From NCBI RefSeq assembly GCF_900156045.1, contig NZ_FTMX01000004.1:434001-498000 (forward strand): a stretch of 64,000 bases of DNA. The letters run 5' to 3'. This DNA is from Peribacillus simplex (lineage in GTDB: Bacteria > Bacillota > Bacilli > Bacillales > DSM-1321). Shown here piece after piece: positions 222 through 33,021 of this stretch. How positions within the stretch are numbered: position 1 is the stretch's first letter; each line of letters opens with the position of its first letter. The notes under the pieces were generated by a model. It had not been told where the DNA came from. It saw nothing but the letters and a program-made list of their open reading frames with translations, and did not search any database. A program made the translations under genes and the position numbers.

Positions 222-1478
222 ATGACAATGTCAATTACCAATTTAAAACTATCAATCAACTCTGAACGCTTACTTAACCGCATCCAGGAACTTGGACGAA
301 TTGGTCTGGGCAATGACAACAAACGAACGAGATTAGCTGCTTCAGATGCAGATAAAGCTGGACGTGACCAATTAGTCACTTGGATGAAGGAAGCTAGTTT
401 GGAAGTTGAAATCGACAGAATCGGTAATATCTTTGGGATTTGGTATGGTCCTGAAAGTAGTAATGAAGCACCAGTTTTGTTGGGTTCGCACATCGACACT
501 GTCATTAACGCTGGTATGTACGACGGATGCTATGGAGTACTTTCTGGGCTTGAAGTAATCAACACTTTGCAGGAGAAAGGTTTTATTCCAACCCGTCCAA
601 TTGCAGTAGCAGCATTTACCAATGAGGAGGGAGTGCGCTATCAGCCCGATATGATGGGTTCTCTTGTGCATGCTGGTGGGCTTTCGGTTGATGATGCGCT
701 TAAATCAGAAGGTACTGATGGCACATTTCTAGGCGAGGAGCTTGAACGTATTGGATATGCCGGTACAAAGGAGCCTGGTTTTTTAAAGCCATATGCTTAC
801 ATTGAGCTTCATATCGAACAAGGTCCAATTCTGGATAAAGTGGATATTCCAATTGGTGCTGTAGAAAATCTTCAAGGCATTTCCTGGCAGCGCATTACGA
901 TTGAAGGTGTTGCAAATCACGCTGGTACTACACCAACTGATATGCGACGTGATGCAGGACTTGCGGCGGCAAGAGTAATAACATATTTACGTGATCGTGC
1001 AAACGCTAATAATGGGCAAACTGTTGCAACAGTTGGAACTATTAGTTTTAAGCCAGATGCCATTAATGTCGTTCCATCTTTAGCAACATTCACTGTTGAT
1101 TTGCGTAATCCGAACGAGCAGAGTTTGCAAGCGGAAGAGCTAGCACTTGCAAACTACCTTAAAAAACTAGCGGCATCCGAAGAAGTATCAATTAAATCTG
1201 AACAACTAGTACGGTTTCACCCAGTTTCATTTGATGAAACAATCGTTAAACTGATAGAGCAAGTTGCCAGTATACGAGGACTCCAATCAAGACGAATGAC
1301 ATCTGGCGCGGGACATGATGCTCAAATGATGGCTCGTATATGTCCTACAGCTATGATTTTCGTTCCAAGTATCGATGGTATTAGTCATAATCCTAAGGAG
1401 AATACCAAAGATACCGATTTGGTAGCTGGAACCAATGTATTACTTGACGTAGTTAGCAAACTTGCAGGTATTCAGTAA
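222..1478 (+). CDS. Hydantoinase/carbamoylase-family amidase (M20-type zinc hydrolase)
   Basis: This is a 418-residue cytosolic metalloenzyme of the AllC/AmaB/HyuC group, which hydrolyses N-carbamoyl amino acids or allantoate-like ureides. Visible family motifs are the first metal ligands in GSHIDTVINAGMYDG, the catalytic Glu-Glu in TNEEGVRYQPDMMGS, ELHIEQGPIL in mid-protein, and GAGHDAQ near the C-terminus. AGGAG lies 4 nt before ATG 222 and 10 nt before ATG 228, so the start is one of these. It heads a cluster with RidA, diaminopropionate ammonia-lyase, an M20 amidohydrolase and a permease, which suggests nitrogen scavenging from a carbamoylated or amidated amino acid. The exact substrate cannot be read from sequence. 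A second copy of this family is at 15522. Confidence 0.88.
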   Translation: MTMSITNLKLSINSERLLNRIQELGRIGLGNDNKRTRLAASDADKAGRDQLVTWMKEASLEVEIDRIGNIFGIWYGPESSNEAPVLLGSHIDTVINAGMYDGCYGVLSGLEVINTLQEKGFIPTRPIAVAAFTNEEGVRYQPDMMGSLVHAGGLSVDDALKSEGTDGTFLGEELERIGYAGTKEPGFLKPYAYIELHIEQGPILDKVDIPIGAVENLQGISWQRITIEGVANHAGTTPTDMRRDAGLAAARVITYLRDRANANNGQTVATVGTISFKPDAINVVPSLATFTVDLRNPNEQSLQAEELALANYLKKLAASEEVSIKSEQLVRFHPVSFDETIVKLIEQVASIRGLQSRRMTSGAGHDAQMMARICPTAMIFVPSIDGISHNPKENTKDTDLVAGTNVLLDVVSKLAGIQ

Positions 1479-1646
1479 ATCATCTTTTGAATTAATAAAA
1501 ACTCATGGCTTAAGAATTTGAGATGCCTTAACTATTTAATTAGGATGGCACAGGCATTTAAAAAGAAATGTAAGTGCTTGCAAGGATGAAGAAAAGCATA
1601 TCTTTCAGATTAGACACATGAAGGAAACACAAGGAGGAACTTAATA

Positions 1647-2027
1647 ATGGTTAAAGAAGTAATTTCAACAAAAAAGGCACCTGGAGCAATAGGACCTTAT
1701 TCTCAAGCAATTAAAGTGGATAACTCTATTTTTGTTTCAGGTCAACTTCCTGTTAATCCTCAGACTGGTGAAATACCAGAGGATATAAAAGAACAAACTA
1801 AACAATCTTTAAATAATGTAAAAGAAATATTAGAGACTGCTGGAGCTTCTTTAGAAGATGTTGTAAAAGTAACAGTATTTTTAAAAGATTTATTAAACTT
1901 TTCTGAAGTTAATGAAATATATGGAGAATTTTTTGCGAAAAATTATCCTGCTAGATGTTGTGTCGAGGTATCTAGGTTACCTAAAGATGCCGGTGTAGAA
2001 ATAGAGGTCATGGCAGTTTTAGAATAA
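1647..2027 (+). CDS. ridA: RidA family 2-iminopropanoate/enamine deaminase
   Basis: The protein has 126 residues, the usual RidA (YjgF/YER057c/UK114) length, with the N-terminal APGAIGPYSQAI motif, FVSGQLP, and the C-terminal CCVEVSRLPKDAGVEIE with the substrate-binding Arg. RidA hydrolyses reactive 2-aminoacrylate-type intermediates to keto acids and ammonia. That fits its place 21 bp before diaminopropionate ammonia-lyase, which generates such an intermediate. AAGGAGG lies about 8 nt before the ATG. Codon use is very AT-rich (AGA, ATA, TTA), unlike the preceding amidase gene, so the ridA-dpaL pair may have been acquired together. Confidence 0.93.
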   Translation: MVKEVISTKKAPGAIGPYSQAIKVDNSIFVSGQLPVNPQTGEIPEDIKEQTKQSLNNVKEILETAGASLEDVVKVTVFLKDLLNFSEVNEIYGEFFAKNYPARCCVEVSRLPKDAGVEIEVMAVLE

Positions 2028-2048
2028 TACTTTTTTAAAGGAGAAAAA

Positions 2049-3275
2049 ATGAGAAATTTAACAGAAATCAAATATATTGTAAATGAAATTGCAAGGAAAA
2101 CAGATGATCAGAAGGTATCCTTAGAATTTATTAATAGTGAAGTAGTTGAAAAGGTAAGAAATTTTCATAAAAGCTTTCCAGAGTATAAAGTAACTCCGCT
2201 TCAGAGCTTAGATCAGTTGTCTAAGCAACTGGGAGTTGACAATATATGGGTGAAAGATGAGTCTTACAGATTTGGACTCAATGCTTTTAAGGTATTAGGT
2301 GGTTCCTATGCTGTTGGTAAATACCTTGCAGAAAAATTAAACGTCGATATTTCAGAGCTTTCATTTGAAAGACTAAGAAGTAAAGAAGTAAAAGAGAAAC
2401 TTGGAGATATTACATTTGTAACAGCAACTGATGGAAATCATGGAAGAGGAATTGCCTGGGCTGCAAACCAGCTGGGACAAAAATCAGTAGTATTTATGCC
2501 AAAAGGGTCTTCGGAAATAAGATTAAACAATATTAGAAAAGAAGGAGCAGAAGCTTCTATAACAGATTTAAACTATGATGATGCTGTCAGATTAGCTAAT
2601 AAATATGCAGATGAACATAATGGAGTATTGATTCAGGATAGTGCTTGGGAAGGTTATGAAGAAATTCCAACATGGATTATGCAAGGATATGTAACACTTG
2701 TTGATGAAGCATTTGACCAGATTAAGGCTAATGGAAAAGATATGCCTACTCATGTATTCCTTCAAGCAGGTGTTGGTTCTTTTGCAGGAACTGTACAAGG
2801 ATATTTAGCATCTAAATTTGGCAATGATAGACCAACAACTGTTATCGTTGAGCCAAATGATGCAGCATGTATATATAAATCTGCTAAAGCAAATGATGGA
2901 AAGCCTCATGCAGTAACAGGTTTTATGCCAACTATAATGGCAGGACTTGCTTGTGGAGAGCCTAGCACTGTTGGTTGGAAGGTTTTAAGAGATTATTCCG
3001 ATATGTATATATCCTGTCCAGATTATGTAGCAGCAAGAGCAATGAGAATACTTGGTCATCCATTAAAAGGAGATCCTAAAGTTATATCTGGAGAATCTGG
3101 TGCAGTAGGTCTGGGTATTTTGAGCTTAATTTTAGATGAAAACGGTTTAAAAGAAATAGCTGAAATTTTAAATATAAATAAAGACTCAAAAATACTTATT
3201 ATCAGTACAGAAGGTGACACTGATCCGGATAATTATAGACAAGTAGTATGGGATGGGGCATATCCTGTAAAATAA
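2049..3275 (+). CDS. dpaL: Diaminopropionate ammonia-lyase
   Basis: This PLP enzyme has 408 residues, close to E. coli YgeX. It converts 2,3-diaminopropionate to pyruvate and two ammonia. The PLP lysine is expected to be Lys81 in RFGLNAFKVLGGSY. The glycine-rich phosphate loop is in ATDGNHGRGIAW, and a second typical block is HVFLQAGVGSFAG. The start has AAAGGAG 6-7 nt upstream. In E. coli the homologue sits with a peptidase and a hydantoinase-like gene (ygeWXYZ), and here it is flanked by an M20 amidohydrolase and a carbamoylase-type amidase. That conserved company supports a shared pathway. Codon use is strikingly AT-rich and close to clostridial style, which suggests transfer. Confidence 0.93.
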   Translation: MRNLTEIKYIVNEIARKTDDQKVSLEFINSEVVEKVRNFHKSFPEYKVTPLQSLDQLSKQLGVDNIWVKDESYRFGLNAFKVLGGSYAVGKYLAEKLNVDISELSFERLRSKEVKEKLGDITFVTATDGNHGRGIAWAANQLGQKSVVFMPKGSSEIRLNNIRKEGAEASITDLNYDDAVRLANKYADEHNGVLIQDSAWEGYEEIPTWIMQGYVTLVDEAFDQIKANGKDMPTHVFLQAGVGSFAGTVQGYLASKFGNDRPTTVIVEPNDAACIYKSAKANDGKPHAVTGFMPTIMAGLACGEPSTVGWKVLRDYSDMYISCPDYVAARAMRILGHPLKGDPKVISGESGAVGLGILSLILDENGLKEIAEILNINKDSKILIISTEGDTDPDNYRQVVWDGAYPVK

Positions 3276-3385
3276 ATTTTTTAGGAGAGGGCTGCTTTCT
3301 GACATGTATCGCCTTAGCATGTTGCCCCCTTTCCCCTTTCCATAAAAAATTAATCAAAAGTATTTTATGAGGGGTTGAGATTAAT

Positions 3386-4549
3386 ATGAGTAACGAAAAT
3401 TTCGAAAAACAGCTTACTGAGTGGCGGCATTATCTTCATTCGCACCCTGAAAGTGCTTTCGAAGAAAAAAATACTTCTGAATTTCTTGCAAAAGTACTAA
3501 TAGGTATGGGATTAGAGGTTCACAGAAATATTGGTGGAACTGGAATCGTTGCTAATCTTACAGTGGGCGATGGGAAAGGTATTATAGGTATTCGATCAGA
3601 TATTGATGCTATTAACCTAACAGAGGTGGGGCAACATCCATACACTTCCCAGAATCCGGGTAAAATGCATGCGTGTGGTCATGATGGACATATGGCCACA
3701 GTATTGGGTGCAGCCCAGTTATTAACAGAGCGTAAAAATTTTAGCGGAACAGTTAGATTTATTTTTCAACCTGCAGAGGAACCTGGTAAAGGCGCTTCTG
3801 CGATGATAAAAGATGGACTTTTTGAACGTTTCCCAATGGATGAGATTTATGGAATGCACAATAGGCCAGGTATGCCTGCAGGTTCAATTTCAACTCGTGG
3901 GGGTGGAATTATGGGAAGTGAGGATAACTTTGTGATCCATATTAAGGGGCAAGGCTCACATGCTTCAAGTCCTCATGTGGGGAAAGATCCAATCGTTATT
4001 GCGTCTGAAATTGTTCTTGCTTTGCAGACCATTATATCCCGTAATATGGACCCAAGTGTTCCTGCAGTCATTTCATGTACTGAATTTATTACAGATGGGA
4101 TTCACAATGCGATTCCTACGAATGTAGTGATTAAAGGGGATACTAGAAGTTATACTCCAGAGGTATCAAAGTTGCTAGAAGAAAGGATGCAAACGATTAG
4201 TGAGGGAATTTGCAAAATAAATGGGGCAGAATGTCAATTTGAATATACCCATGAATTCGCACCAACTGTTAACTCGGCAAAGTGTGTTGATATTGCGGTA
4301 AGAGCATCACGGAATGTTGTTGGTGAAAATAAGGTGGATGGAAATTGTCAACAGTGGATGGCTTCTGAAGATTTTGGTACGTTTTTACAGAGGATTCCTG
4401 GCTGTTTTGTATTTATAGGAAATGGTGACGATTCTGAAGGCATAGGCAATGTTCCACTTCATAATTCACGCTATGACTATAATGATAAGATACTAACAAT
4501 TGGAGCGAAATATTTCGCAGAGTTAATAAAAGTCCGCCTGCCAAAATAA
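3386..4549 (+). CDS. M20 family amidohydrolase (N-acyl amino acid type)
   Basis: The 387-residue protein belongs to the HipO/AmhX-like M20D group of zinc/manganese amidohydrolases that release amino acids from N-acyl conjugates. It shows RRD-like IRSDIDAINL, the metal motif MHACGHDGHMA, the catalytic pair in FQPAEEPGKGA, and the dimerisation-domain block IKGQGSHASSPH. The final histidine is in PLHNSRYD. It has no signal peptide, so it is cytosolic. It starts at ATG 3386 with GAGGGGTTGAG upstream. It lies 110 bp after dpaL and before the amino-acid permease. The acyl group removed is unknown. Confidence 0.88.
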   Translation: MSNENFEKQLTEWRHYLHSHPESAFEEKNTSEFLAKVLIGMGLEVHRNIGGTGIVANLTVGDGKGIIGIRSDIDAINLTEVGQHPYTSQNPGKMHACGHDGHMATVLGAAQLLTERKNFSGTVRFIFQPAEEPGKGASAMIKDGLFERFPMDEIYGMHNRPGMPAGSISTRGGGIMGSEDNFVIHIKGQGSHASSPHVGKDPIVIASEIVLALQTIISRNMDPSVPAVISCTEFITDGIHNAIPTNVVIKGDTRSYTPEVSKLLEERMQTISEGICKINGAECQFEYTHEFAPTVNSAKCVDIAVRASRNVVGENKVDGNCQQWMASEDFGTFLQRIPGCFVFIGNGDDSEGIGNVPLHNSRYDYNDKILTIGAKYFAELIKVRLPK

Positions 4550-15521: not shown

Positions 15522-16748
15522 GTGAGTCTTATCGAACGTATAGAAAAGCAAATAAATGATTTGAACGAATTCACATCAACACCCGGAAAAGGGACAACCC
15601 GGCTTACGTATAGCAAGGAAGACTTACTTACACGCAATTATATTAAAAATAAAATGATGGATTCCGGTCTAACAGTAAAGGAAGATGGACTTGGAAATAT
15701 TTTTGGAAAGCTTGAAGGTACTTTAAAAGATGCACCAAGCATTTTGATCGGTTCACATTTTGATTCCGTACCAAGTGGCGGTGCGTATGACGGACCAGCC
15801 GGTGTAATTGTCGCTCTTGAAGTGGCTGCCCTATTTGCAGAAAATCAATTAACACCTAAATATCCATTGGAAATCGTTGCCCTGATTGAAGAAGAGGGTG
15901 CTCGTTTTGGCGGAGGACTAATGGGGTCGAGAGGAATAGTGGGAACACTTAGTGAGGAAAGTTTTAAAAACTTAAGGGATAAAGAAGGTATCACAACAAT
16001 TGAAGCGATGTCAAAAATTGGTCTGGATTCATCACTTCCGAAAAGGAGAAATCCTAATAGCATTAAAGCATTTCTCGAATTGCATATAGAACAAGGGCCA
16101 ATCCTTGAAGAGAAGAATATCCCTATTGGTGTTGTAGAGGCTATTGTTGGTTTAACTCAATTTGAAGTAACCATTGAAGGAAAGGCAGGACATGCAGGCA
16201 CAACCCCGATGGATCGCCGTACGGATGCATTGGTTGCAGCCGCCCAGATTATTTCTCAATTACCGAGCTTTGCAATTGAGGAAGGTGAAGGAACGGTTAT
16301 CACGACAGGGCGACTACATGTTTTACCAAATGGAGCCAACGTCATCCCAAATAAAGTCGAATTTTCGGTAGATATCCGATCTAGCAAGGAAGAACATATT
16401 AACAATGTCATCAAGCGAATGAAAGAATTAATAGAATCCTACCATGAGCAGGGAATCCATACAGCTGCGGAACAGGTGTTATATATGCCGCCAAAGGTAT
16501 TGAGTGATGTGATAAAAGCTTTATTAAAGGATAAAAGTTCTGATTTGGAAATTCCATACTGTTCCATTAATAGTGGAGCAGGTCATGATGCGATGGTTTT
16601 TTCCGATGTGACTGATGTTGGCATGCTCTTTGTTCCAAGTAAAGCAGGACTAAGTCATTGTCCAGAGGAATGGTCTGATGCACGTCATTTAGCAAATGGA
16701 GTGCAAATATTTTACGAAGTGGCTAAATGTTTAACGGAGGTAGAATGA
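15522..16748 (+). CDS. Hydantoinase/carbamoylase-family amidase
   Basis: This is the second AllC/AmaB-type M20 zinc amidase in the window, 408 residues, with GSHFDSVPSGGAYDGPAG, LIEEEGARFGGGLMGSRG, ELHIEQGPILEEKNIPIG, GKAGHAGTTPMDRR and NSGAGHDAMVF. It should cleave an N-carbamoyl amino acid or related ureide. The GTG start has TTGGAGGG upstream. The stop codon overlaps the next ATG by four bases (ATGA), which implies translational coupling to the M20 aminoacylase-like gene. It differs clearly from the copy at 222, so the two loci probably handle different conjugates. Confidence 0.88.
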   Translation: MSLIERIEKQINDLNEFTSTPGKGTTRLTYSKEDLLTRNYIKNKMMDSGLTVKEDGLGNIFGKLEGTLKDAPSILIGSHFDSVPSGGAYDGPAGVIVALEVAALFAENQLTPKYPLEIVALIEEEGARFGGGLMGSRGIVGTLSEESFKNLRDKEGITTIEAMSKIGLDSSLPKRRNPNSIKAFLELHIEQGPILEEKNIPIGVVEAIVGLTQFEVTIEGKAGHAGTTPMDRRTDALVAAAQIISQLPSFAIEEGEGTVITTGRLHVLPNGANVIPNKVEFSVDIRSSKEEHINNVIKRMKELIESYHEQGIHTAAEQVLYMPPKVLSDVIKALLKDKSSDLEIPYCSINSGAGHDAMVFSDVTDVGMLFVPSKAGLSHCPEEWSDARHLANGVQIFYEVAKCLTEVE

Positions 16749-17926
16749 GGATGATTAATCAAACGATAAAAGAAGTGATTCAAAATAATAGTGATGAATT
16801 AATTGAAATACGTAGAAAACTTCATAGCGAACCTGAGTTATCATGGGAAGAAGAAAATACAACGGCCTTTATTTGTGAATACCTTGATAAATTAGAAATA
16901 CCTTATCGCAAAGCAGAACCAACAGGTGTCATTGCAGAAATTAAAGGCGGTAAGGCAGGAAAGACGGTAGCATTAAGAGCGGATATGGACGCCCTATCTG
17001 TTGAAGAATTAAATAAAGACTTGCCGTATGCTTCAAAAGAAGAAGGGAAAATGCATGCATGTGGTCATGATGCACACACATCCATGCTATTAATTGCAGC
17101 GAAGGCTCTAAACGGAATAAAAGAAGAATTACCTGGGAATGTGCGATTAATTTTTCAGCCAGCTGAAGAAGTGGCAACAGGTGCAAGGGAAATGGTTAAA
17201 CAAGGGGCTGTCAAAGGTGTTGATAATGTTTTTGGCATACATATTTGGTCGCAAATGCCAACAAACAAGGTTGCTTGTACTCAAGGACCTTCATTCGCTT
17301 CAGCAGATATCTTTACAGTAACGTTTAAAGGAAGAGGGGGACATGGTGCCATGCCTCAGGATTGCATCGATGCAACCATTGTGGCCTCTTCATTCGTCAT
17401 GAATGTACAATCTGTCGTATCAAGAACGGTCGACCCACAAAATCCCGCAGTATTGACAGTTGGAAAAATGGCCGTTGGCACACGATTTAATGTCATTGCA
17501 GAAAATGCCGTCATTGAAGGGACTGTCCGTTGTTTTGATCCTAAAACACGTGATCATATTGAAAAACAGCTCCAGATTTATGCTGAAAATGTTGCCAATA
17601 TTTACGGTGCGACCGCACAGGTTGAGTATTACCGTGGAACGCAAGCTGTCATTAATGATGAATACAGCGCCAAATTAGTGCAAAAAGTTGCTTCAAATGC
17701 GTTTGGAGAAGACGCAGTATATAATGAAAAGCCAACAATGGGTGGAGAAGATTTTAGTTTCTATTTAGATGAAGTACCTGGAAGCTTCGCTTTAGTTGGA
17801 TCTGGAAACCCTGAAAAAGATACGGAATGGGCCCATCATCACGGGAAATTCAATATCGACGAAGATGCGCTTGCTACCGGTGCAGAACTTTACGCTCAAT
17901 ATGCCTGGGCATATTTGCACGAATAA
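16745..17926 (+). CDS. M20 family amidohydrolase (N-acyl amino acid/hippurate type)
   Basis: The 393-residue cytosolic metallohydrolase shows RADMDALSVEEL, MHACGHDAHTSML, FQPAEEVATGA with the catalytic Glu pair, KGRGGHGAMPQD in the dimerisation domain, and GGEDFSFYLDEVPG near the end. It releases an amino acid from an N-acyl conjugate. ACGGAGGT lies upstream of ATG 16745 (overlapping the previous stop) and ATG 16751; the first gives the coupled arrangement. Pairing of a carbamoylase with an M20D enzyme also occurs in the 0-5 kb cluster. Confidence 0.88.
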   Translation: MRMINQTIKEVIQNNSDELIEIRRKLHSEPELSWEEENTTAFICEYLDKLEIPYRKAEPTGVIAEIKGGKAGKTVALRADMDALSVEELNKDLPYASKEEGKMHACGHDAHTSMLLIAAKALNGIKEELPGNVRLIFQPAEEVATGAREMVKQGAVKGVDNVFGIHIWSQMPTNKVACTQGPSFASADIFTVTFKGRGGHGAMPQDCIDATIVASSFVMNVQSVVSRTVDPQNPAVLTVGKMAVGTRFNVIAENAVIEGTVRCFDPKTRDHIEKQLQIYAENVANIYGATAQVEYYRGTQAVINDEYSAKLVQKVASNAFGEDAVYNEKPTMGGEDFSFYLDEVPGSFALVGSGNPEKDTEWAHHHGKFNIDEDALATGAELYAQYAWAYLHE

Positions 17927-18010: not shown

Positions 18011-18048
18011 AAGGTTTAAATTTCACTAAAAGGGCTTTGCACATAGTC

Positions 18049-18086
18049 AAAAAGGGAATGGATTTTATCATTCCCTTTTTGTTTTC
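18049..18086 (+). terminator. Terminator of the second amidase operon
   Basis: AAAAAGGGAATG and CATTCCCTTTTT form a perfect stem with an 8-nt loop, followed by TTTTTGTTTT. The symmetric A and T flanks would allow it to work in either direction. Confidence 0.8.
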
Positions 18087-18242
18087 CATTAATAAGGAAT
18101 GAAACAACAAAGATTCTTTTGTCAAAATCAAAAGTAAGAAATCAATTAATTATCAACAAAAACTTAAATTAACTTAAATTAATGCAGAATTCATTGCTAT
18201 TAAAATTAAATAGACTTATAATTGGATCTATAGGGTGAAATC

Positions 18243-18375
18243 ATGTAAATGGACTGGTGACTATTTCGACAAATATGAAAATGGATTGATATCGAAACAA
18301 TTTGTTAAATAAATAATAAATCCAAAAACACCACTAGAAGAGATATGAAAAAATGGAAGATAAGAGAAAACTCAA
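18243..18375 (+). pseudogene. Relic of a DeoR-type regulator gene (N-terminal part)
   Basis: The stretch is alignable with the start of the intact DeoR gene at 21291. GATATCGAAACAATTTG (18288-18304) differs in one base from 21351-21367. ACTTATAATT and the ribosome-site/ATG block GGGTGAAATCATG (18233) match 21262 and 21281. Here the ATG is followed at once by TAA, and a gap and frameshifts break the rest. It is a decayed duplicate of the regulator, directly upstream of the Tat amidohydrolase. Confidence 0.65.
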
Positions 18376-18467
18376 TCAAATACTGGATGGTTGCCTCTTG
18401 TTCTCCAATGAAGTCTATTAATCATGATCATCTTAAAATACAAACGTACTAGAGGAGGATTTTACAG

Positions 18468-19892
18468 GTGAATCAGGAAATGGAAGGTTTGTCCCGCAGA
18501 AAGTTTATAGGTAACGTCTGTAAAATTGGAAGCGCTTCCGCGGTTCTCGGTGTCACGGACACGATGGGATTGTTCATGCCTGAGATGGCAAGTGCGGATA
18601 CTGAGAAGAAGGCTGGCCATAACACCAAAAAACCAGGAAAAAACAGTTCCTACATGTTGATGAATGTTCGATTGGAAAGTGGATACAAGTATAAAAATGG
18701 CCAGGTCGTCGCAACCGAAACGGTATTGAGGAACCTCCATATTGTTAAAGGCACCATTACCAGAATACTAGATACTAAGTCCCCTTATGGAAAAGGTATC
18801 GATTGCTACGACGCGAAAGGCATGCTGCTACTTCCTTCTTTTAGAGATATGCATATTCATTTGGATAAAACCTATTATGGGGGTCCTTGGAGAGCAGCTG
18901 CTACGAGGAAAAATGGCATTTTTGACATGATTACCTTGGAGCAGACGTTACTTCTGGAGCTCCTTCCAACAGCCCAGGAGCGTGCGGAGAAATTAATTGA
19001 ACTAATACTTGGCTATGGCTCGACATATGTCAGAAGCCATTGCAACATCGATCCAGTCGTTGGTCTAAAGAATCTTGAGAAACTCAATCGGGCCTTAGCA
19101 AACTATTCAGATAAAATATCACATGAAATTGTTGGCTTTCCTCAACATGGCCTGCTTCGTTCAAATGCTCAGGGACTGATACGCGAAGCCATGCAACTCG
19201 GAGTTACACATGTTGGCGGACTAGATCCAACCTTAGTTGACGGTGATATGGAAAAATCGTTGCAAACAATGGTACAGATCGCGGTGGACTACAAAGCAGG
19301 TATTGATATTCACCTTCATGAAGGTGGCGAAACGGGATTGAAGGCAATTCGTCGATTGGCTGACCTGACTGAGGAAGCCGGTTTGCAGGGGAAAGTGACG
19401 ATCAGTCATGCATTTTCGCTCGCTTCGTTAGGGGATGGAGCCGATATAGAAATGGCAAAACGCCTTGCATCGCTGGGTATTTCCATTGCCTCAACCGTTC
19501 CGATCGGCAAAGACGTAATGCCGATTCCGCTGCTTCAGAAGCATAAGGTGAACGTCATGCTTGGTAATGATAGTATTACTGATCACTGGTCACCATTCGG
19601 GATTGGCGATACGCTGCAAAAGGCACATCTCGCTGCAGATCTGTATGGATGGTCAAACGAATACAACCTGTCACGCGCACTGTCCCTTGCTACCGGCGGC
19701 ATTACACCGCTAGACGAGTCCGGTAAGCAAATATGGCCAAAGGTAGGCGATGCCGCGACCGCCGTACTCATTCCGGCAAGCTGCTCGGCCGAAGCCGTAG
19801 CCCGTCTGCCGAAGCGTGCTGCCGTATTGCATAAGGGAACTCTGTCTTCGGGTTCTCTGGATAGCGTGAAGCCTAAGCTTCATACCAATTAA
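18468..19892 (+). CDS. Tat-exported cytosine-deaminase-like amidohydrolase
   Basis: This 474-residue metal-dependent amidohydrolase is closest in motif order to CodA-type deaminases: DMHIHLDKTYYGG (HxH ligands), RSHCNIDPVVGLKN, VGFPQHGLLRS, IDIHLHEGGET (metal His and candidate catalytic Glu), SHAF and NDSITDHWSPFG (metal Asp). Unusually, it opens with a twin-arginine signal peptide: SRRKFIG at residues 9-15, a moderately hydrophobic stretch to about residue 37, and an Ala-Ser-Ala cleavage site after residue 43. The GTG start has AGAGGAGGA 8 nt upstream. tatA and tatC follow directly, so the enzyme is very probably exported folded with its metal. The substrate is unknown; cyclic amidines, pyrimidines or creatinine-like compounds are possible. 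Confidence 0.88.
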   Translation: MNQEMEGLSRRKFIGNVCKIGSASAVLGVTDTMGLFMPEMASADTEKKAGHNTKKPGKNSSYMLMNVRLESGYKYKNGQVVATETVLRNLHIVKGTITRILDTKSPYGKGIDCYDAKGMLLLPSFRDMHIHLDKTYYGGPWRAAATRKNGIFDMITLEQTLLLELLPTAQERAEKLIELILGYGSTYVRSHCNIDPVVGLKNLEKLNRALANYSDKISHEIVGFPQHGLLRSNAQGLIREAMQLGVTHVGGLDPTLVDGDMEKSLQTMVQIAVDYKAGIDIHLHEGGETGLKAIRRLADLTEEAGLQGKVTISHAFSLASLGDGADIEMAKRLASLGISIASTVPIGKDVMPIPLLQKHKVNVMLGNDSITDHWSPFGIGDTLQKAHLAADLYGWSNEYNLSRALSLATGGITPLDESGKQIWPKVGDAATAVLIPASCSAEAVARLPKRAAVLHKGTLSSGSLDSVKPKLHTN

Positions 19893-20010
19893 AAGGATGT
19901 GACATTGTTAATGAACCTTGGTAAAAAAGAATTGGGGATAGGTTCGATGAGCACATAAACGTTTAACGTTTTAAAGGAATTACAAAATATAAATACCAAT
20001 GGGGGAAGTT

Positions 20011-20199
20011 ATGCTACAAAATATTGGAATACCAGGATTGATGCTAATTTTAGTGATTGCCCTTATTATTTTCGGCCCTTCAAAGTTACCGGAAATTGGA
20101 AGGGCGTTTGGCTCAACATTAAGAGAATTTAAAAAGTCTACCAGAGACCTTGTAGCAGATGACACTAATGCCGATGTGACCAATAAGAAAGAAAGCTAA
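20011..20199 (+). CDS. tatA: Twin-arginine translocase subunit TatA (TatAd type)
   Basis: The 62-residue protein has a short N-terminal transmembrane helix (about residues 5-20), the [14 protein letters not shown] hinge and amphipathic helix, and a charged tail, all matching B. subtilis TatAd closely. It oligomerises to form the Tat pore. An ATG at 19999 lacks a ribosome site, whereas GGGGGAAG lies just before ATG 20011. It is 118 bp after the Tat-dependent amidohydrolase, recalling the phoD-tatAd-tatCd arrangement of B. subtilis, where the neighbour is the substrate. Confidence 0.95.
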
Positions 20200-20217
20200 T
20201 CAAATAAATGAAGAGGG

Positions 20218-20246
20218 GATGTAGGATCTGTCTTACATCTTTTTTT
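20218..20246 (+). terminator. Terminator-like hairpin between tatA and tatC
   Basis: GATGTAGGA and TCTTACATC form a 9-bp stem (one G-U) with a 4-nt loop, followed by seven T. It lies inside the operon and would let only part of the transcripts reach tatC, keeping TatA in excess over TatC. The ribosome site of tatC follows within a few bases. Confidence 0.7.
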
Positions 20247-20255
20247 CCTGGAGTG

Positions 20256-21008
20256 ATGAAGTTGGAAAATCAAAAAAAAGCGAGCATGATTCAGCACCTT
20301 GAGGAGTTACGTAAACGTATTATTATCACTTTAGTCGTTTTCACGCTGTTCCTCGTACTGACATTTATTTATGTTCAAGATATTTATAATATAATAGTTA
20401 AAGACTTGCCGTTTAAGCTAGCTCTGTTAGGACCGAGTGATATTATACTCGTTTATTTAATTATTGCCACCGTCGTTGCCATCGCGGCTACTATACCGGT
20501 TGCTGCTCACCAAACTTGGCTGTTTGTACGTCCAGCGTTAACACCAAAAGAACGCAAAGTTACTAGCGCTTATATTCCAGCACTATTTATTCTATTCACA
20601 CTAGGAATCAGTTTTGGTTACTTCATTTTATTTCCGCTTGTACTGAATTTTTTAATGTCTCTATCAAACGACATGTTTACAACTTTCTTTACAACGGAGA
20701 AATATTTCCGATTTATGCTTCATATGACACTGCCTTTTGGATTTCTGTTTGAAATGCCGGTTGTCATTATGTTTTTAACAAGTTTAGGAATAATAAATCC
20801 ATACCGTTTGCAAAAAATCAGGAAATATTCTTACTTTATACTAATAGTTATTTCAATTTTGATTACTCCACCAGACTTTCTATCAGATATCCTGGTTACT
20901 ATACCTTTATTACTATTATATGAAAGCAGTGTAAGCTTATCCAAATTCGTATATAAGCGACATCAAAGGGAAAAAGAAGGTAAAAATGAGATGTATGAAT
21001 CTATCTAA
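20256..21008 (+). CDS. tatC: Twin-arginine translocase subunit TatC (TatCd type)
   Basis: The protein of about 250 residues has six transmembrane helices and the family blocks HLEELRKRIIITL at the N-terminus, AAHQTWLFVRPALTPKERK, FGYFILFPLVLNF, LPFGFLFEMPVVIMF and LITPPDFLSD. TatC recognises the twin-arginine signal and recruits TatA. The start is ATG 20256 or TTG 20262, with CTGGAG upstream. The similarity to B. subtilis TatCd is obvious across the length. Together with tatA it makes a minimal two-component (TatA plus TatC) Gram-positive translocase dedicated, by context, to the amidohydrolase upstream. Confidence 0.95.
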   Translation: MKLENQKKASMIQHLEELRKRIIITLVVFTLFLVLTFIYVQDIYNIIVKDLPFKLALLGPSDIILVYLIIATVVAIAATIPVAAHQTWLFVRPALTPKERKVTSAYIPALFILFTLGISFGYFILFPLVLNFLMSLSNDMFTTFFTTEKYFRFMLHMTLPFGFLFEMPVVIMFLTSLGIINPYRLQKIRKYSYFILIVISILITPPDFLSDILVTIPLLLLYESSVSLSKFVYKRHQREKEGKNEMYESI

Positions 21009-21290
21009 AAAGGGCCTGGCAATAAGACAGTATCATCTCCATGTTAGGGTTATTTTTATTCATACACCGAATATACCCCTTCCAATGGTCGATAATTTGG
21101 TGGACTAACCGTCATGTTTAATCCTTGATTAATATCCCCGATATGGAATTCTGATAACTAAATATATTGATTACAGTGTTCAGTATTTAGTAATAATCTA
21201 CCCTCGAAAGCTTAATTATCCTTAATATAATTCAGGTTTCGTTGTGAATAAACTTGGATTAACTTATAATTAAATCTACGAGGTGAGATC

Positions 21291-22058
21291 ATGCTACAGG
21301 ATGAACGACTAGACGCCATTGTTCAATATTTAAACGAACATGAACGGATTGATATTGAAACAATTTGCAATATAAATAATGTATCTAAAGATACGGCCAG
21401 AAGAGACTTAATAAATTTAGAAGAGAAGAGGAAGATCATTCGAATACGGGGTGGGGCGAAAAAGGCTCTGCTTTCAAATGAAGTCCATAATTATGGTGAG
21501 CGCATGAACATGGCATCGGAAGCTAAAGGTAAGATCGGAAAATTTGCAGCTTCTTTGATAAACGATGGTGACCATCTTATTTTGGATGCCTCCACAACAG
21601 TTCAATTTGCAGCTAAATATTTAACGAGCCGGAATAATACTGTCGTGACAAATTCGATTAACATTGCCAGTGTACTAAGCCAAAGAGAAGATATAAAAGT
21701 TAATTTATTAGGAGGAACATTAAGCACTAGACACCAAGCCATTTATGGTTCAAGAGCCATTAGGGATGTCCAGGATTATAAGGTGAATAAATGCATCATT
21801 GGTACTTGCGGAATATCTTCTGAAGGACTGTCTACTTCAGTAGAGGAAGAAGGCCTCCTCGTTCACGAAATGATTAAGCGTTCTGACCAGGTCATTGTGA
21901 TTGCAGATTCAACTAAATTTAATAAAACTTTTTTTCAAAAAGTATGTGACTTAGATGCCGTTGATATAGTGATTACAGACAAAGAAGTACCAAAAAACTT
22001 GCAGGAAATCCTAAATAAACATGTGGTAGAAGCGATTGTGGTTCCAGGTCAAGATTGA
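21291..22058 (+). CDS. DeoR/GlpR-family transcriptional regulator
   Basis: The 255-residue repressor has an N-terminal DeoR helix-turn-helix (about 6-57, with VSKDTARRDLINLEEKRKIIRIRGGA) and a C-terminal sugar-phosphate-isomerase-like sensor domain (ILDASTTVQFAAKYL, VNLLGGTLSTRHQAIYG, VIVIADSTKFNKTFF). Such regulators usually sense phosphorylated sugars or nucleoside breakdown products. It lies 280 bp after tatC in the same direction, and a decayed copy of its 5' end sits just before the Tat amidohydrolase, so it probably controls that operon. AGGTGA precedes the ATG. Confidence 0.85.
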   Translation: MLQDERLDAIVQYLNEHERIDIETICNINNVSKDTARRDLINLEEKRKIIRIRGGAKKALLSNEVHNYGERMNMASEAKGKIGKFAASLINDGDHLILDASTTVQFAAKYLTSRNNTVVTNSINIASVLSQREDIKVNLLGGTLSTRHQAIYGSRAIRDVQDYKVNKCIIGTCGISSEGLSTSVEEEGLLVHEMIKRSDQVIVIADSTKFNKTFFQKVCDLDAVDIVITDKEVPKNLQEILNKHVVEAIVVPGQD

Positions 22059-30377: not shown

Positions 30378-31772
30378 ATGAGAGCTAAAACCATCGTTAA
30401 TTCAGGTTTAATTCAAGAAGAGCCAAATTTTAAGAGAGTACTAACCCTCCCATCCCTTGTATTTTACGGCCTTGCTTATTTAATACCTACGACAGTTTTT
30501 GATATGTATGGAATTGTATCGAATATAACTCACGGAATGTTTTCCTTAACTCACGCGTTAACAGCATTAGCAATACTGTTCACGGCATTTAGTTATGGAA
30601 GCATGGTTGCCGCTTTCCCGGTTTCAGGTTCTGCATACACGTATGCCCAACAGGCAATAAATCCATATATTGGTTTTTTGACAGGTTGGACTGTCATGAT
30701 GGATTATCTTCTTGTACCTATGCTGTCTTACGTTATTGCCGCTAATTATATGAATGCGATTTTCCCTGGAATACCTAATTGGATATGGATCCTCGGATTA
30801 ACTGTCCTTGTGACAACGGTTAGCTACGTTGGCATTAATGTTACTGCCAAAGTAAATAATATAATTGTGTTGGTTCAGCTCTCCATTATAGCTATTGTAA
30901 CGATTTTTTTACTTAAATTTATTGCCCAAGGAGGAGGAATGGGATCCTTTTTCTCGTGGGATGTATTTGTAAACACTAGTGAGTTTGCTAAACCGGAAGT
31001 AGGATGGGGAGTCATTTTTACTGGTGCATCTATACTGGTACTATCATATTTTGGATTTGATGCTGTAACGATGGTAGCGGAAGAAGCTATCAATCCGAGA
31101 GTTAATGTTCCAAGAGCGGTATTAATAATTTGTGCGGGTGCGGGGCTTTTATTTACGACCGTATCTTACTTAATGCTATTAGCCTGGCCTGCAGGCTGGA
31201 GTGAATTCACGGATGTAAATACGGGAGCACTTGAATTATTTAAAAAGATTGGATTAGGTATACTCGCTGTTATCTACCCTTTCTTCACCTTGATTGGAGC
31301 CATTGCGGGCCCTTTAGCTGCACAAACCTCTTGTTCCCGTATGCTGTGCAAAATGGGTGGCGACAGAATTATACCAAAGTTTTTTGGCTACATTCACCCT
31401 AAAAAAGCTACTCCAACAAATAGTATTTTATTTATCGGGTCTCTTAGTTTAACTGCTTTGTTTCTTGATGTAAAAACAGTCATTTCTTTAGTGAACTTCG
31501 GAGCACTGTTCGGCTGTACCTTCGTAAATATATCCGTTATATTCTATTATTTTATTAAGCAGAAAAAACGTAAAGGCATAAATATTGTACGATACTTGTT
31601 ATTTCCTTCAATTGGAGCATTGATCACGCTATTCTTTTTATACAAATTGGATATGTATGCAAAGACTGCAGGTTTGATTTGGTTGACAGTTGGAGTTATT
31701 TACCTAGGACTCAATACAAATTTCTTCAAAAAACTTCCACCGGAATTAAATATGAATGAAATGAAAGGATGA
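30378..31772 (+). CDS. APC family amino acid/polyamine/purine-type permease
   Basis: This 464-residue carrier has 12 predicted transmembrane helices and APC superfamily landmarks: the first broken helix around FYGLAYLIPTTVFDMYGIV, FPVSGSAYTYAQQAINPYIGFLTGW in helix 3, and FTGASILVLSYFGFDAVTMVAEEAINPR in the helix 6-7 region. It lies between a GntR regulator and an amidohydrolase, 7 bp before the latter, so it probably imports that enzyme's nitrogen-containing substrate. AGGGGGAAAT precedes the ATG. Confidence 0.88.
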   Translation: MRAKTIVNSGLIQEEPNFKRVLTLPSLVFYGLAYLIPTTVFDMYGIVSNITHGMFSLTHALTALAILFTAFSYGSMVAAFPVSGSAYTYAQQAINPYIGFLTGWTVMMDYLLVPMLSYVIAANYMNAIFPGIPNWIWILGLTVLVTTVSYVGINVTAKVNNIIVLVQLSIIAIVTIFLLKFIAQGGGMGSFFSWDVFVNTSEFAKPEVGWGVIFTGASILVLSYFGFDAVTMVAEEAINPRVNVPRAVLIICAGAGLLFTTVSYLMLLAWPAGWSEFTDVNTGALELFKKIGLGILAVIYPFFTLIGAIAGPLAAQTSCSRMLCKMGGDRIIPKFFGYIHPKKATPTNSILFIGSLSLTALFLDVKTVISLVNFGALFGCTFVNISVIFYYFIKQKKRKGINIVRYLLFPSIGALITLFFLYKLDMYAKTAGLIWLTVGVIYLGLNTNFFKKLPPELNMNEMKG

Positions 31773-31779
31773 TACTTTA

Positions 31780-33021
31780 ATGACACAATCATATTGGTTA
31801 GCAAATGTATTGCTTGAAAGCGCTTTCCTTCGTAAGGATGGAATGGTTACAAAAACAATAACGGAAAACTGTCATATCCTAGTTGAAGAGGGGAAATTCA
31901 CTAAAATAATCCCGGCTCATGAGAATTTACCCGTTGAGTTGCCAGTTCTGGATACGGGCGGACTGCTAATGCTTCCTGGTTTTCAGGATATGCATATTCA
32001 CCTGGACAAAACATACTATGGAGGTAAATGGAAAGCTTGTACCCCATTTGTGGATGTATTTGGCCGAATGAAAGAAGAAGAAGACATGCTTCCGTCTCTT
32101 CTTCCTGTTACGGAAGACAGGGCGAAGAAGATTTTGGAGCTGCTTTTACAGAATGGAGTAACCCACATACGGGCTCAGTGTAATGTTGACCCAATAATTG
32201 GGTTGAAAAACATGGAAGCAGTTTTACAGGCATTACAATCATACGATGGACAGCTTTCTTACGAGTTAGTTGCTTTTCCTCAGCACGGACTCTTGCGAAG
32301 TAATTCCGTTCCACTTGTAAGGGAAGCATTGCGAATGGGAGCTACCGCTGCAGGGGGATTGGATCCGGCCATTGTAGATGAAAATATTGAAGCTTCATTA
32401 CATGCACTCATAGAACTTGCAGTTGAAGCGGATGCAGATATAGATTTGCATTTACATGAACCTGGTCACCTGGGAATTTATACGATGAAACGATTGGCAA
32501 AACTTACAGAAGAAGCAGGCTGGCAGGGAAGAGTTACAATTGGACATGCGTTTGGACTCGGGGATGTTCCAGTTGAAGTGGCAGCTGATGCAGCGGAAAC
32601 TTTAGCTCAAGCGGGTATTTCAATTGCTTCCACTGTACCTATCGATATTCCCACAATTCCAATCCCATTGCTTCATGAAAAGGGTATAAATGTCTCGCTT
32701 GTAAATGACAGCATAACGGATCATTGGGACCCATTTGGCACAGGGGACGTGCTTTACAAAGCTAGTCTGATGGCTGAACGTTTCGCTTGGATTGATGAGT
32801 GGTCTTTAGGACGAGCCCTAGGTTTTATCACTGGCGGGAAAATGCCTCTTAATTCAGAGGGGGAGAGAGTTTGGCCGACCATTGGTGATAAAGCGGATGC
32901 TGTTTTTGTGGAAGCTAGTTGTTCAGCGGAAGCAGTCGCAAGACGTGCAAGGCGCCTTGCGGTTATGCACAAAGGGAAAATTGTTTCAGGTTCATTCAAT
33001 CAAATCTTAGCAAAAAATTAA
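31780..33021 (+). CDS. Cytosolic cytosine-deaminase-like amidohydrolase (paralogue of the Tat enzyme)
   Basis: The 413-residue enzyme is a close paralogue of the protein at 18468, sharing DMHIHLDKTYYGG, CNVDPIIGLKN, AFPQHGLLRSN, IDLHLHEPGH, IGHAFGLG and VNDSITDHWDPFGTGD. It lacks the twin-arginine leader: translation starts directly at MTQSYWLANVLLES. The metal ligands and catalytic Glu are all present, so it should be active in the cytosol. It lies 7 bp after the permease. The pair of enzymes suggests that the same type of compound is attacked outside the cell at one locus and inside it at the other. Confidence 0.88.
   Translation: MTQSYWLANVLLESAFLRKDGMVTKTITENCHILVEEGKFTKIIPAHENLPVELPVLDTGGLLMLPGFQDMHIHLDKTYYGGKWKACTPFVDVFGRMKEEEDMLPSLLPVTEDRAKKILELLLQNGVTHIRAQCNVDPIIGLKNMEAVLQALQSYDGQLSYELVAFPQHGLLRSNSVPLVREALRMGATAAGGLDPAIVDENIEASLHALIELAVEADADIDLHLHEPGHLGIYTMKRLAKLTEEAGWQGRVTIGHAFGLGDVPVEVAADAAETLAQAGISIASTVPIDIPTIPIPLLHEKGINVSLVNDSITDHWDPFGTGDVLYKASLMAERFAWIDEWSLGRALGFITGGKMPLNSEGERVWPTIGDKADAVFVEASCSAEAVARRARRLAVMHKGKIVSGSFNQILAKN

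Follow-up and report, generated by a model that had tools for sequence, protein, structure and literature searches.

Gene organisation at the amidohydrolase locus

The window, by which we mean the whole analysed stretch of 64,000 nucleotides, belongs to a Peribacillus simplex genome of 6.08 Mb. It carries an amidohydrolase gene with a predicted export leader, followed by tat genes and a regulator gene. The relevant features are:

18048–18081 (+): terminator-like stem-loop (14 pairs, T-rich tail) between upstream M20/carbamoylase genes and the operon
18159–18390 (+): decayed copy of the deoR promoter with the first ~160 bp of deoR, by local alignment to 21207–21454
18468–19892 (+): YahJ-type amidohydrolase with predicted export leader; GTG start, 474 amino acids; profile and fold matches
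18468–18596 (+): predicted twin-arginine signal peptide, residues 1–43 (SRRKFIG ... ASA), by motif, leader alignment and TIGR01409
19999–20199 (+): tatA (PF02416), likely start 20011 by reading
20208–21008 (+): tatC (PF00902), likely start 20256 by reading
21291–22058 (+): DeoR-family regulator 3′ of tatC, also present in relatives and annotated in three opened Priestia plasmids
31780–33021 (+): leaderless paralogue (50% identical), presumed cytosolic counterpart, beside an amino-acid permease gene (30378–31772)

The earlier note had tatA and tatC following the amidohydrolase gene, and matches to the profiles PF02416 and PF00902 on the same strand bore this out. As far as the genes are concerned, cargo gene, tatA and tatC on one strand have the order of a substrate-tatA-tatC operon, with co-transcription being putative. 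The stem-loop at 18048–18081 is a pattern match only, such sites being found five times with 3.2 expected. Further upstream, carbamoylase/allantoate-amidohydrolase and M20 genes form two groups, at positions 222–4549 and 15522–17926; the first group, named by eye, also contains RidA- and ammonia-lyase-like genes.

The amidohydrolase belongs to the YahJ group

The 474-residue protein is a member of the NCBIfam family NF005312/PRK06846 (591.4 bits, cut-off 447) and was assigned by Pfam to Amidohydro_3, with its first 51 residues lacking any Pfam family match. The closest named orthologues found are those of Peribacillus frigoritolerans (95% identity) and P. muralis (92%). In the predicted structure, residues 1–52 have pLDDT values below 50 and most of the remainder is confident, except for the loops 136–146 and 373–377. 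Among solved structures, the nearest folds belong to AtzC (Z 41.8) and cytosine deaminase (Z ~36). All 36 aligned family members share the residues H129, H131, H282, H314 and D368; we take these to be metal-site residues from an alignment with cytosine deaminase and AtzC together with known structures. The description of the enzyme as cytosine-deaminase-like thus holds for the fold and fails for the family, as the protein scored far below the cut-offs of the cytosine deaminase models NF006685 (93.4 versus 483) and NF005748 (107.7 versus 438) and is a relative of YahJ instead.

A tblastn search of PLSDB (E ≤ 1e-60) returned 45 plasmid records, comprising nine from Priestia, one from Enterococcus and 35 others, all proteobacterial as judged by their names. 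We opened three Priestia records, the Enterococcus record and 11 of the 35 proteobacterial records, the latter hand-picked for spread. In a tree of 41 rows, one clade of 30 rows (support 100/100*) joins the Bacilli genes and the 11 proteobacterial genes and contains E. coli YahJ, with the leaderless paralogues of the own genome falling outside it. By these sequence comparisons, the amidohydrolase is a member of the YahJ orthologue group and not a cytosine deaminase.

All 11 opened proteobacterial homologues carry an RR leader, which in Paracoccus ferrooxidans lies only upstream of the annotated start and in Novosphingobium has the form RRGI; the single opened Enterococcus record encodes a protein with no RR leader. 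E. coli YahJ, 51% identical to the window protein, is listed as a Tat substrate with the function ‘Unknown’ or ‘putative deaminase’ (PMC7549933) and appears in a Tat-substrate table that cites predictions (PMC3027627). Because of these listings and the proteobacterial RR leaders, the premise that enzymes of this fold are otherwise cytosolic is wrong for the YahJ clade. The enzyme family is already known by sequence, its E. coli member figures in lists of Tat cargo, and export of the fold is not new. Six paralogues in the own genome show no leader by eye.

The twin-arginine leader

Inspection of the translated reading frame confirmed both the SRRKFIG motif (S9-R10-R11-K-F-I-G, residues 9–15) and the Ala-Ser-Ala site (residues 41–43). 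The assignment to the Tat type stood up at the sequence level: S-R-R-x-F is invariant across 20 aligned leaders from 22 leadered loci, as are seven other positions aside from the start methionine. Signal-peptide prediction gave a divided answer, with the Tat-signal model TIGR01409 matching 20 of 20 aligned leaders at E ≤ 1 and the window leader itself, at 14.4–15.0 bits, staying below the model cut-off of 16.7. An aspartate (D31) lies inside the hydrophobic stretch (h-region) of the window leader.

Linkage to tat genes

Linkage was scored in 32 close-orthologue loci from Bacilli (72–100% identical), 22 leadered and 10 leaderless, the latter being 75–85% identical. Besides the window, the sample takes in 18 of the 38 loci in a first orthologue set and loci from further genomes searched, with three duplicates (L071, L072, L077) left out; one locus (L069) comes from the window's own species. 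The remaining 20 of the 38 loci (≤61% identical) stand outside the count and had no tat match in their flanks. Contig ends made four loci (L020, L129, L024, L027) undecidable, and one locus (L022) was represented by only 337 bases upstream. Among the decidable loci, a tatC gene lay within 1 kb at 15 of the 20 with a leader and at none of the eight without one. The refuting case of the earlier note, homologues that regularly lack both leader and linkage, came true in part: 10 close orthologues are leaderless, with no linkage at the eight decidable loci, and five decidable leadered loci are unlinked, yet no decidable leaderless locus is linked, so that leader and linkage go together. A statistical tie between the two traits is nevertheless not claimed. 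Phylogenetically independent contrasts agreed in two to three of three cases with none opposing, which is not significant, and the claim was dropped because the contrasts number only three.

Two arrangements were found. At nine Bacillales loci including the window, the amidohydrolase gene, tatA and tatC lie in this order on one strand, and a DeoR gene follows 3′ in eight of them (the exception is L073). The genome survey proposed in the earlier note thus recovered the pairing at eight other loci, one of them in the species of the window, as well as in all three opened Priestia plasmids (of nine matches), where the order amidohydrolase-tatA-tatC-DeoR is accompanied by a divergent uracil/xanthine transporter gene upstream; these plasmids are not independent, since one replicon cluster is common to all three. 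In the second arrangement, seen at six Paenibacillus loci, tatC lies directly 5′ of the amidohydrolase gene and tatA on the opposite strand at a distance of ~1.3 kb. In four of five Paenibacillus loci examined, small genes belonging to a single cluster lie ahead of tatC, and the L014 member is MerR-like. Five decidable leadered loci of the Neobacillus group had no tat match in their flanks, and tblastn with Bacilli TatA and TatC detected no tat gene at the 11 proteobacterial loci.

The gene occurs sporadically, in six of 43 genomes of the family at E ≤ 1e-160. At E ≤ 1e-170 it was found in 11 of 397 genomes of the order, one of 398 of the class (the own genome), eight of 344 of a Paenibacillus family, eight of 61 of a Neobacillus genus, and one of 19 and two of 16 in two more families.

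TatC lineages

A TatC tree was built from 61 of 65 rows after removal of four duplicates or near-duplicates and carried a long-branch warning for the Paenibacillus rows. A single clade of all amidohydrolase-linked TatCs was rejected (p-AU 2.8e-5). On this sequence-based tree, the TatCs at the linked loci fall into two unrelated lineages with different gene orders, and the pairing of amidohydrolase and translocase seems to have arisen twice among related bacteria, with different export genes. The label ‘TatAd/TatCd type’ found no support, as a clade uniting the Bacillales linked TatCs with PhoD-linked TatCs was likewise rejected (p-AU 1.1e-5) in a tree with no B. subtilis reference sequence. 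One TatC (L074) fell outside the other Bacillales amidohydrolase-linked TatCs in the best tree, with a single clade not being rejected (p 0.42). The own genome contains three tatAC pairs besides the linked one.

Other cargo genes beside tat genes

What had appeared to be a second Tat-leadered amidohydrolase in Paenibacillus turned out to be an FAD amine oxidase, the BLAST match covering the leader only. Its gene occurs in 54 of 334 genomes of Paenibacillaceae, with tatC adjoining in 30 of 30 loci seen (L148–L177) and tatA in 29 of 30. The RR leader was read in the 20 of these loci that are in forward orientation, and resembles that of the amidohydrolase. The TatAs of the Paenibacillus amidohydrolase and amine-oxidase cassettes are 72–90% alike; a single clade of their TatCs was absent from the best tree and not rejected (p 0.38). 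A common origin of both cassettes is not claimed, because TatC does not resolve it and Tat leaders generally share parts of the motif.

Two further substrate-tatA-tatC sets were observed in the own genome (L055 and L056, on contigs C11 and C10). One cargo gene is PhoD-like and lies ~3 kb past the end of the window; its P. muralis counterpart (L012), at 93% identity, is a match to Pfam PhoD. The other encodes a calcineurin-like phosphoesterase that bears an RR motif, and a DeoR gene lies upstream of it. A PhoX-type phosphatase gene was located directly 5′ of tatA-tatC in five (L183, L184, L187, L188, L189) of the eight regions retrieved from genomes of Neobacillus type and of FJAT-14578.

A duplicated regulator promoter

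The 232-base duplicate upstream of the amidohydrolase gene (18159–18390) aligned with the deoR region at a score of 110, whereas the highest-scoring of 500 shuffles reached 41. It contains repeats of AACTTAAATT and a promoter-like site (18194–18222), a kind of match no commoner than in shuffled sequence; ACTT-type repeats were seen by eye upstream of both the amidohydrolase gene and deoR. Four of five relatives tested have the duplicate with scores of 81–146 against shuffle maxima of 33–40, the fifth (L012) being weaker (43 versus 33). The remnant in Bacillus sp. FJAT-14578 (L013) still shows pieces in two frames that match DeoR residues 1–38 and 36–69. In this same genome, an IS605 OrfB-like gene (L013:9192–10433) is located between tatC and deoR. 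The presence of a deoR promoter duplicate in front of the amidohydrolase gene suggests shared control, and most likely the DeoR protein controls both promoters, its own and the duplicate, as far as can be judged from the sequence.

Gain and loss of the leader

Mapping of leader states on the tree required five changes. The leader pattern score had missed the Novosphingobium RRGI form, which was scored as leadered by eye; counting again gave five changes both ways. Most simply, the leader would have been gained once and lost about four times. This direction depends on the use of the paralogues as outgroup, because change counts alone are not directional.

Neighbouring genes and a possible substrate

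Four leadered loci of the Neobacillus type (L021, L022, L023, L043) have homologues of yahE, yahF and yahG downstream, which are transcarbamylase-like; those at L021 match the AllH, FdrA and AllG models. A fifth such locus (L017) lacks yahEFG homologues. In E. coli, AllFGH is described as an oxamic transcarbamylase (PMC11326118).

The own genome further contains five leaderless paralogues on contigs C8 and C18 (L058, L059), three of them in tandem on C18. Those on C8 adjoin homologues of YahG, YahD and carbamate kinase (YahI), and those on C18 a xanthine/uracil-type permease gene. An ankyrin-repeat (YahD-like) gene was observed repeatedly near amidohydrolase-family members in different phyla (L078, L080, L058, L195, L199, L205).

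Downstream of the leaderless orthologues of one clade (L075, L076, L078) lie genes for a GPH-type symporter and for a protein with a weak likeness to creatininase; the corresponding model was run on L075 only (51 bits, cut-off 235), the L076 and L078 genes being identified by eye. A family that switches between enzyme export and substrate import would fit these three loci, a pattern absent from other leaderless loci. An importer beside leaderless orthologues was rejected as a rule: one is present at these loci and at L077/L026, and none at L079, L080, L130 and L025, where the genes directly beside were inspected by eye.

The catabolic neighbours in relatives point to a cyclic ureide or nucleobase-like compound. 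Together, these gene contexts suggest that the substrate class is a cyclic nitrogen compound that is catabolised, and the earlier proposal of such a substrate remains plausible as a prediction, given the yahEFG homologues, carbamate kinase and xanthine/uracil transporters encoded near the relatives' genes.

A model for export and catabolism

We consider a DeoR-linked, YahJ-type export-and-catabolism operon the best explanation of the locus, with a probability of about 0.68. The genes, the leader, the conserved active-site residues, the recurrent linkage and the duplicated promoter sequence can be read from the DNA; from them we infer the following course. The regulator (21291–22058) would act on its own promoter and on the duplicated copy before the amidohydrolase gene, and through this co-regulation enzyme and translocase would be made together. 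The amidohydrolase would fold and take up its presumed metal in the cytosol, its RR leader would be recognised, probably with preference, by the co-encoded TatC, and TatA and TatC would carry it across the membrane. After export, the leader would be cut behind Ala-Ser-Ala. Outside, the enzyme may hydrolyse a C–N bond of a small cyclic nitrogen compound, putatively a ureide, oxopurine, pyrimidine or triazine-like molecule, and the product or the freed nitrogen would be taken up by the cell.

A private translocase is not required for export, because five leadered Neobacillus loci and 11 proteobacterial loci exist at which no tat genes were found. These same loci speak for a reading in which the enzyme is exported by any of the four TatAC pairs and the adjoining tatAC has no cargo preference, lying there because tatAC cassettes commonly neighbour Tat substrates or move together with them; PhoD, PhoX, metallophosphoesterase and FAD amine oxidase genes also adjoin tat genes. 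We regard this as unlikely, since the linkage involves two TatC lineages that are unrelated to each other and differ in gene order, and is absent from the decidable leaderless orthologues, and since the operon and its regulator have promoter sequence in common. Highly improbable in our judgement is a vestigial or inefficient leader on an enzyme that stays cytosolic, as the six leaderless paralogues of the own genome presumably do. The approximately four apparent leader losses among close relatives, D31 in the h-region and the TIGR01409 score below threshold would agree with it; the invariance of S-R-R-x-F and seven more leader positions in 20 aligned leaders and the retention of tatAC next to the amidohydrolase gene argue against it.

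A more far-reaching form of the export-and-catabolism operon, which we put forward tentatively and hold to be doubtful, is a private portable module. Its leader would be decoded mainly by the co-encoded TatC, and cargo-specific TatAC would have been recruited independently in Bacillales and Paenibacillus. The family would switch between export (leader, often tatAC) and substrate import (no leader, transporter adjoining in some lineages), and the enzyme might perform the outer step of a ring degradation that yields carbamoyl phosphate.

The function of YahJ is missing from the cited E. coli Tat lists. The Bacilli operon adds translocase genes and a regulator along with informative neighbours, and substrate, inducer and cargo specificity thereby become testable in one small operon. 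Few cargoes are known to be linked to a TatAC pair of their own; the amidohydrolase would join them, and the series of apparent leader losses would be natural material for asking why an enzyme gets exported.

Comparison with known systems

AtzC (N-isopropylammelide isopropylaminohydrolase; 6nbo, 2qt3) is the top PDB match by sequence and fold, with 30% identity and an rmsd of 2.4 over 373 residues for 6nbo. The fold match begins at residue 59 of the amidohydrolase, and therefore the leader has no counterpart in AtzC; a shared substrate is only putative. Cytosine deaminase (NF006685, 1k6w) has the fold in common and its metal-site positions align, whereas the amidohydrolase, with 93 bits where the family model requires 483, is not a member.

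The likeness to E. coli YahJ extends over residues 6–464 and includes the RR leader. As in E. coli yahDEFGHIJ, the four Neobacillus-type orthologues mentioned above adjoin yahE, yahF and yahG homologues, at 25–28%, 60–61% and 75–76% identity, respectively. In contrast, the 17-kb yah region has no tat genes and the window locus no yahEFGI homologues.

Genes named as tatC neighbours in Bacilli include phoD, efeB, DUF839 and others (PMC3827258); a word-start search of the main text of that paper gave no ‘amidohydrolase’, ‘deaminase’ or ‘hydrolase’. The pairing had looked undescribed to the earlier note, and no description of an amidohydrolase gene next to tatAC was found in the openly licensed literature covered by the searches, which does not establish its absence in print. 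PhoD is given as the single known cargo of TatAdCd (PMC6708511). Its linkage to translocase genes makes the amidohydrolase locus a new version of the known substrate-tatA-tatC operon. Like PhoD-TatAdCd of Bacillus, the locus has tatA and tatC after the cargo gene on one strand, an order that a PhoD-like gene in the own genome shows as well; it differs in its amidohydrolase cargo, in the DeoR gene that follows, and in a TatC that stands apart from the PhoD-linked TatCs in the tree.
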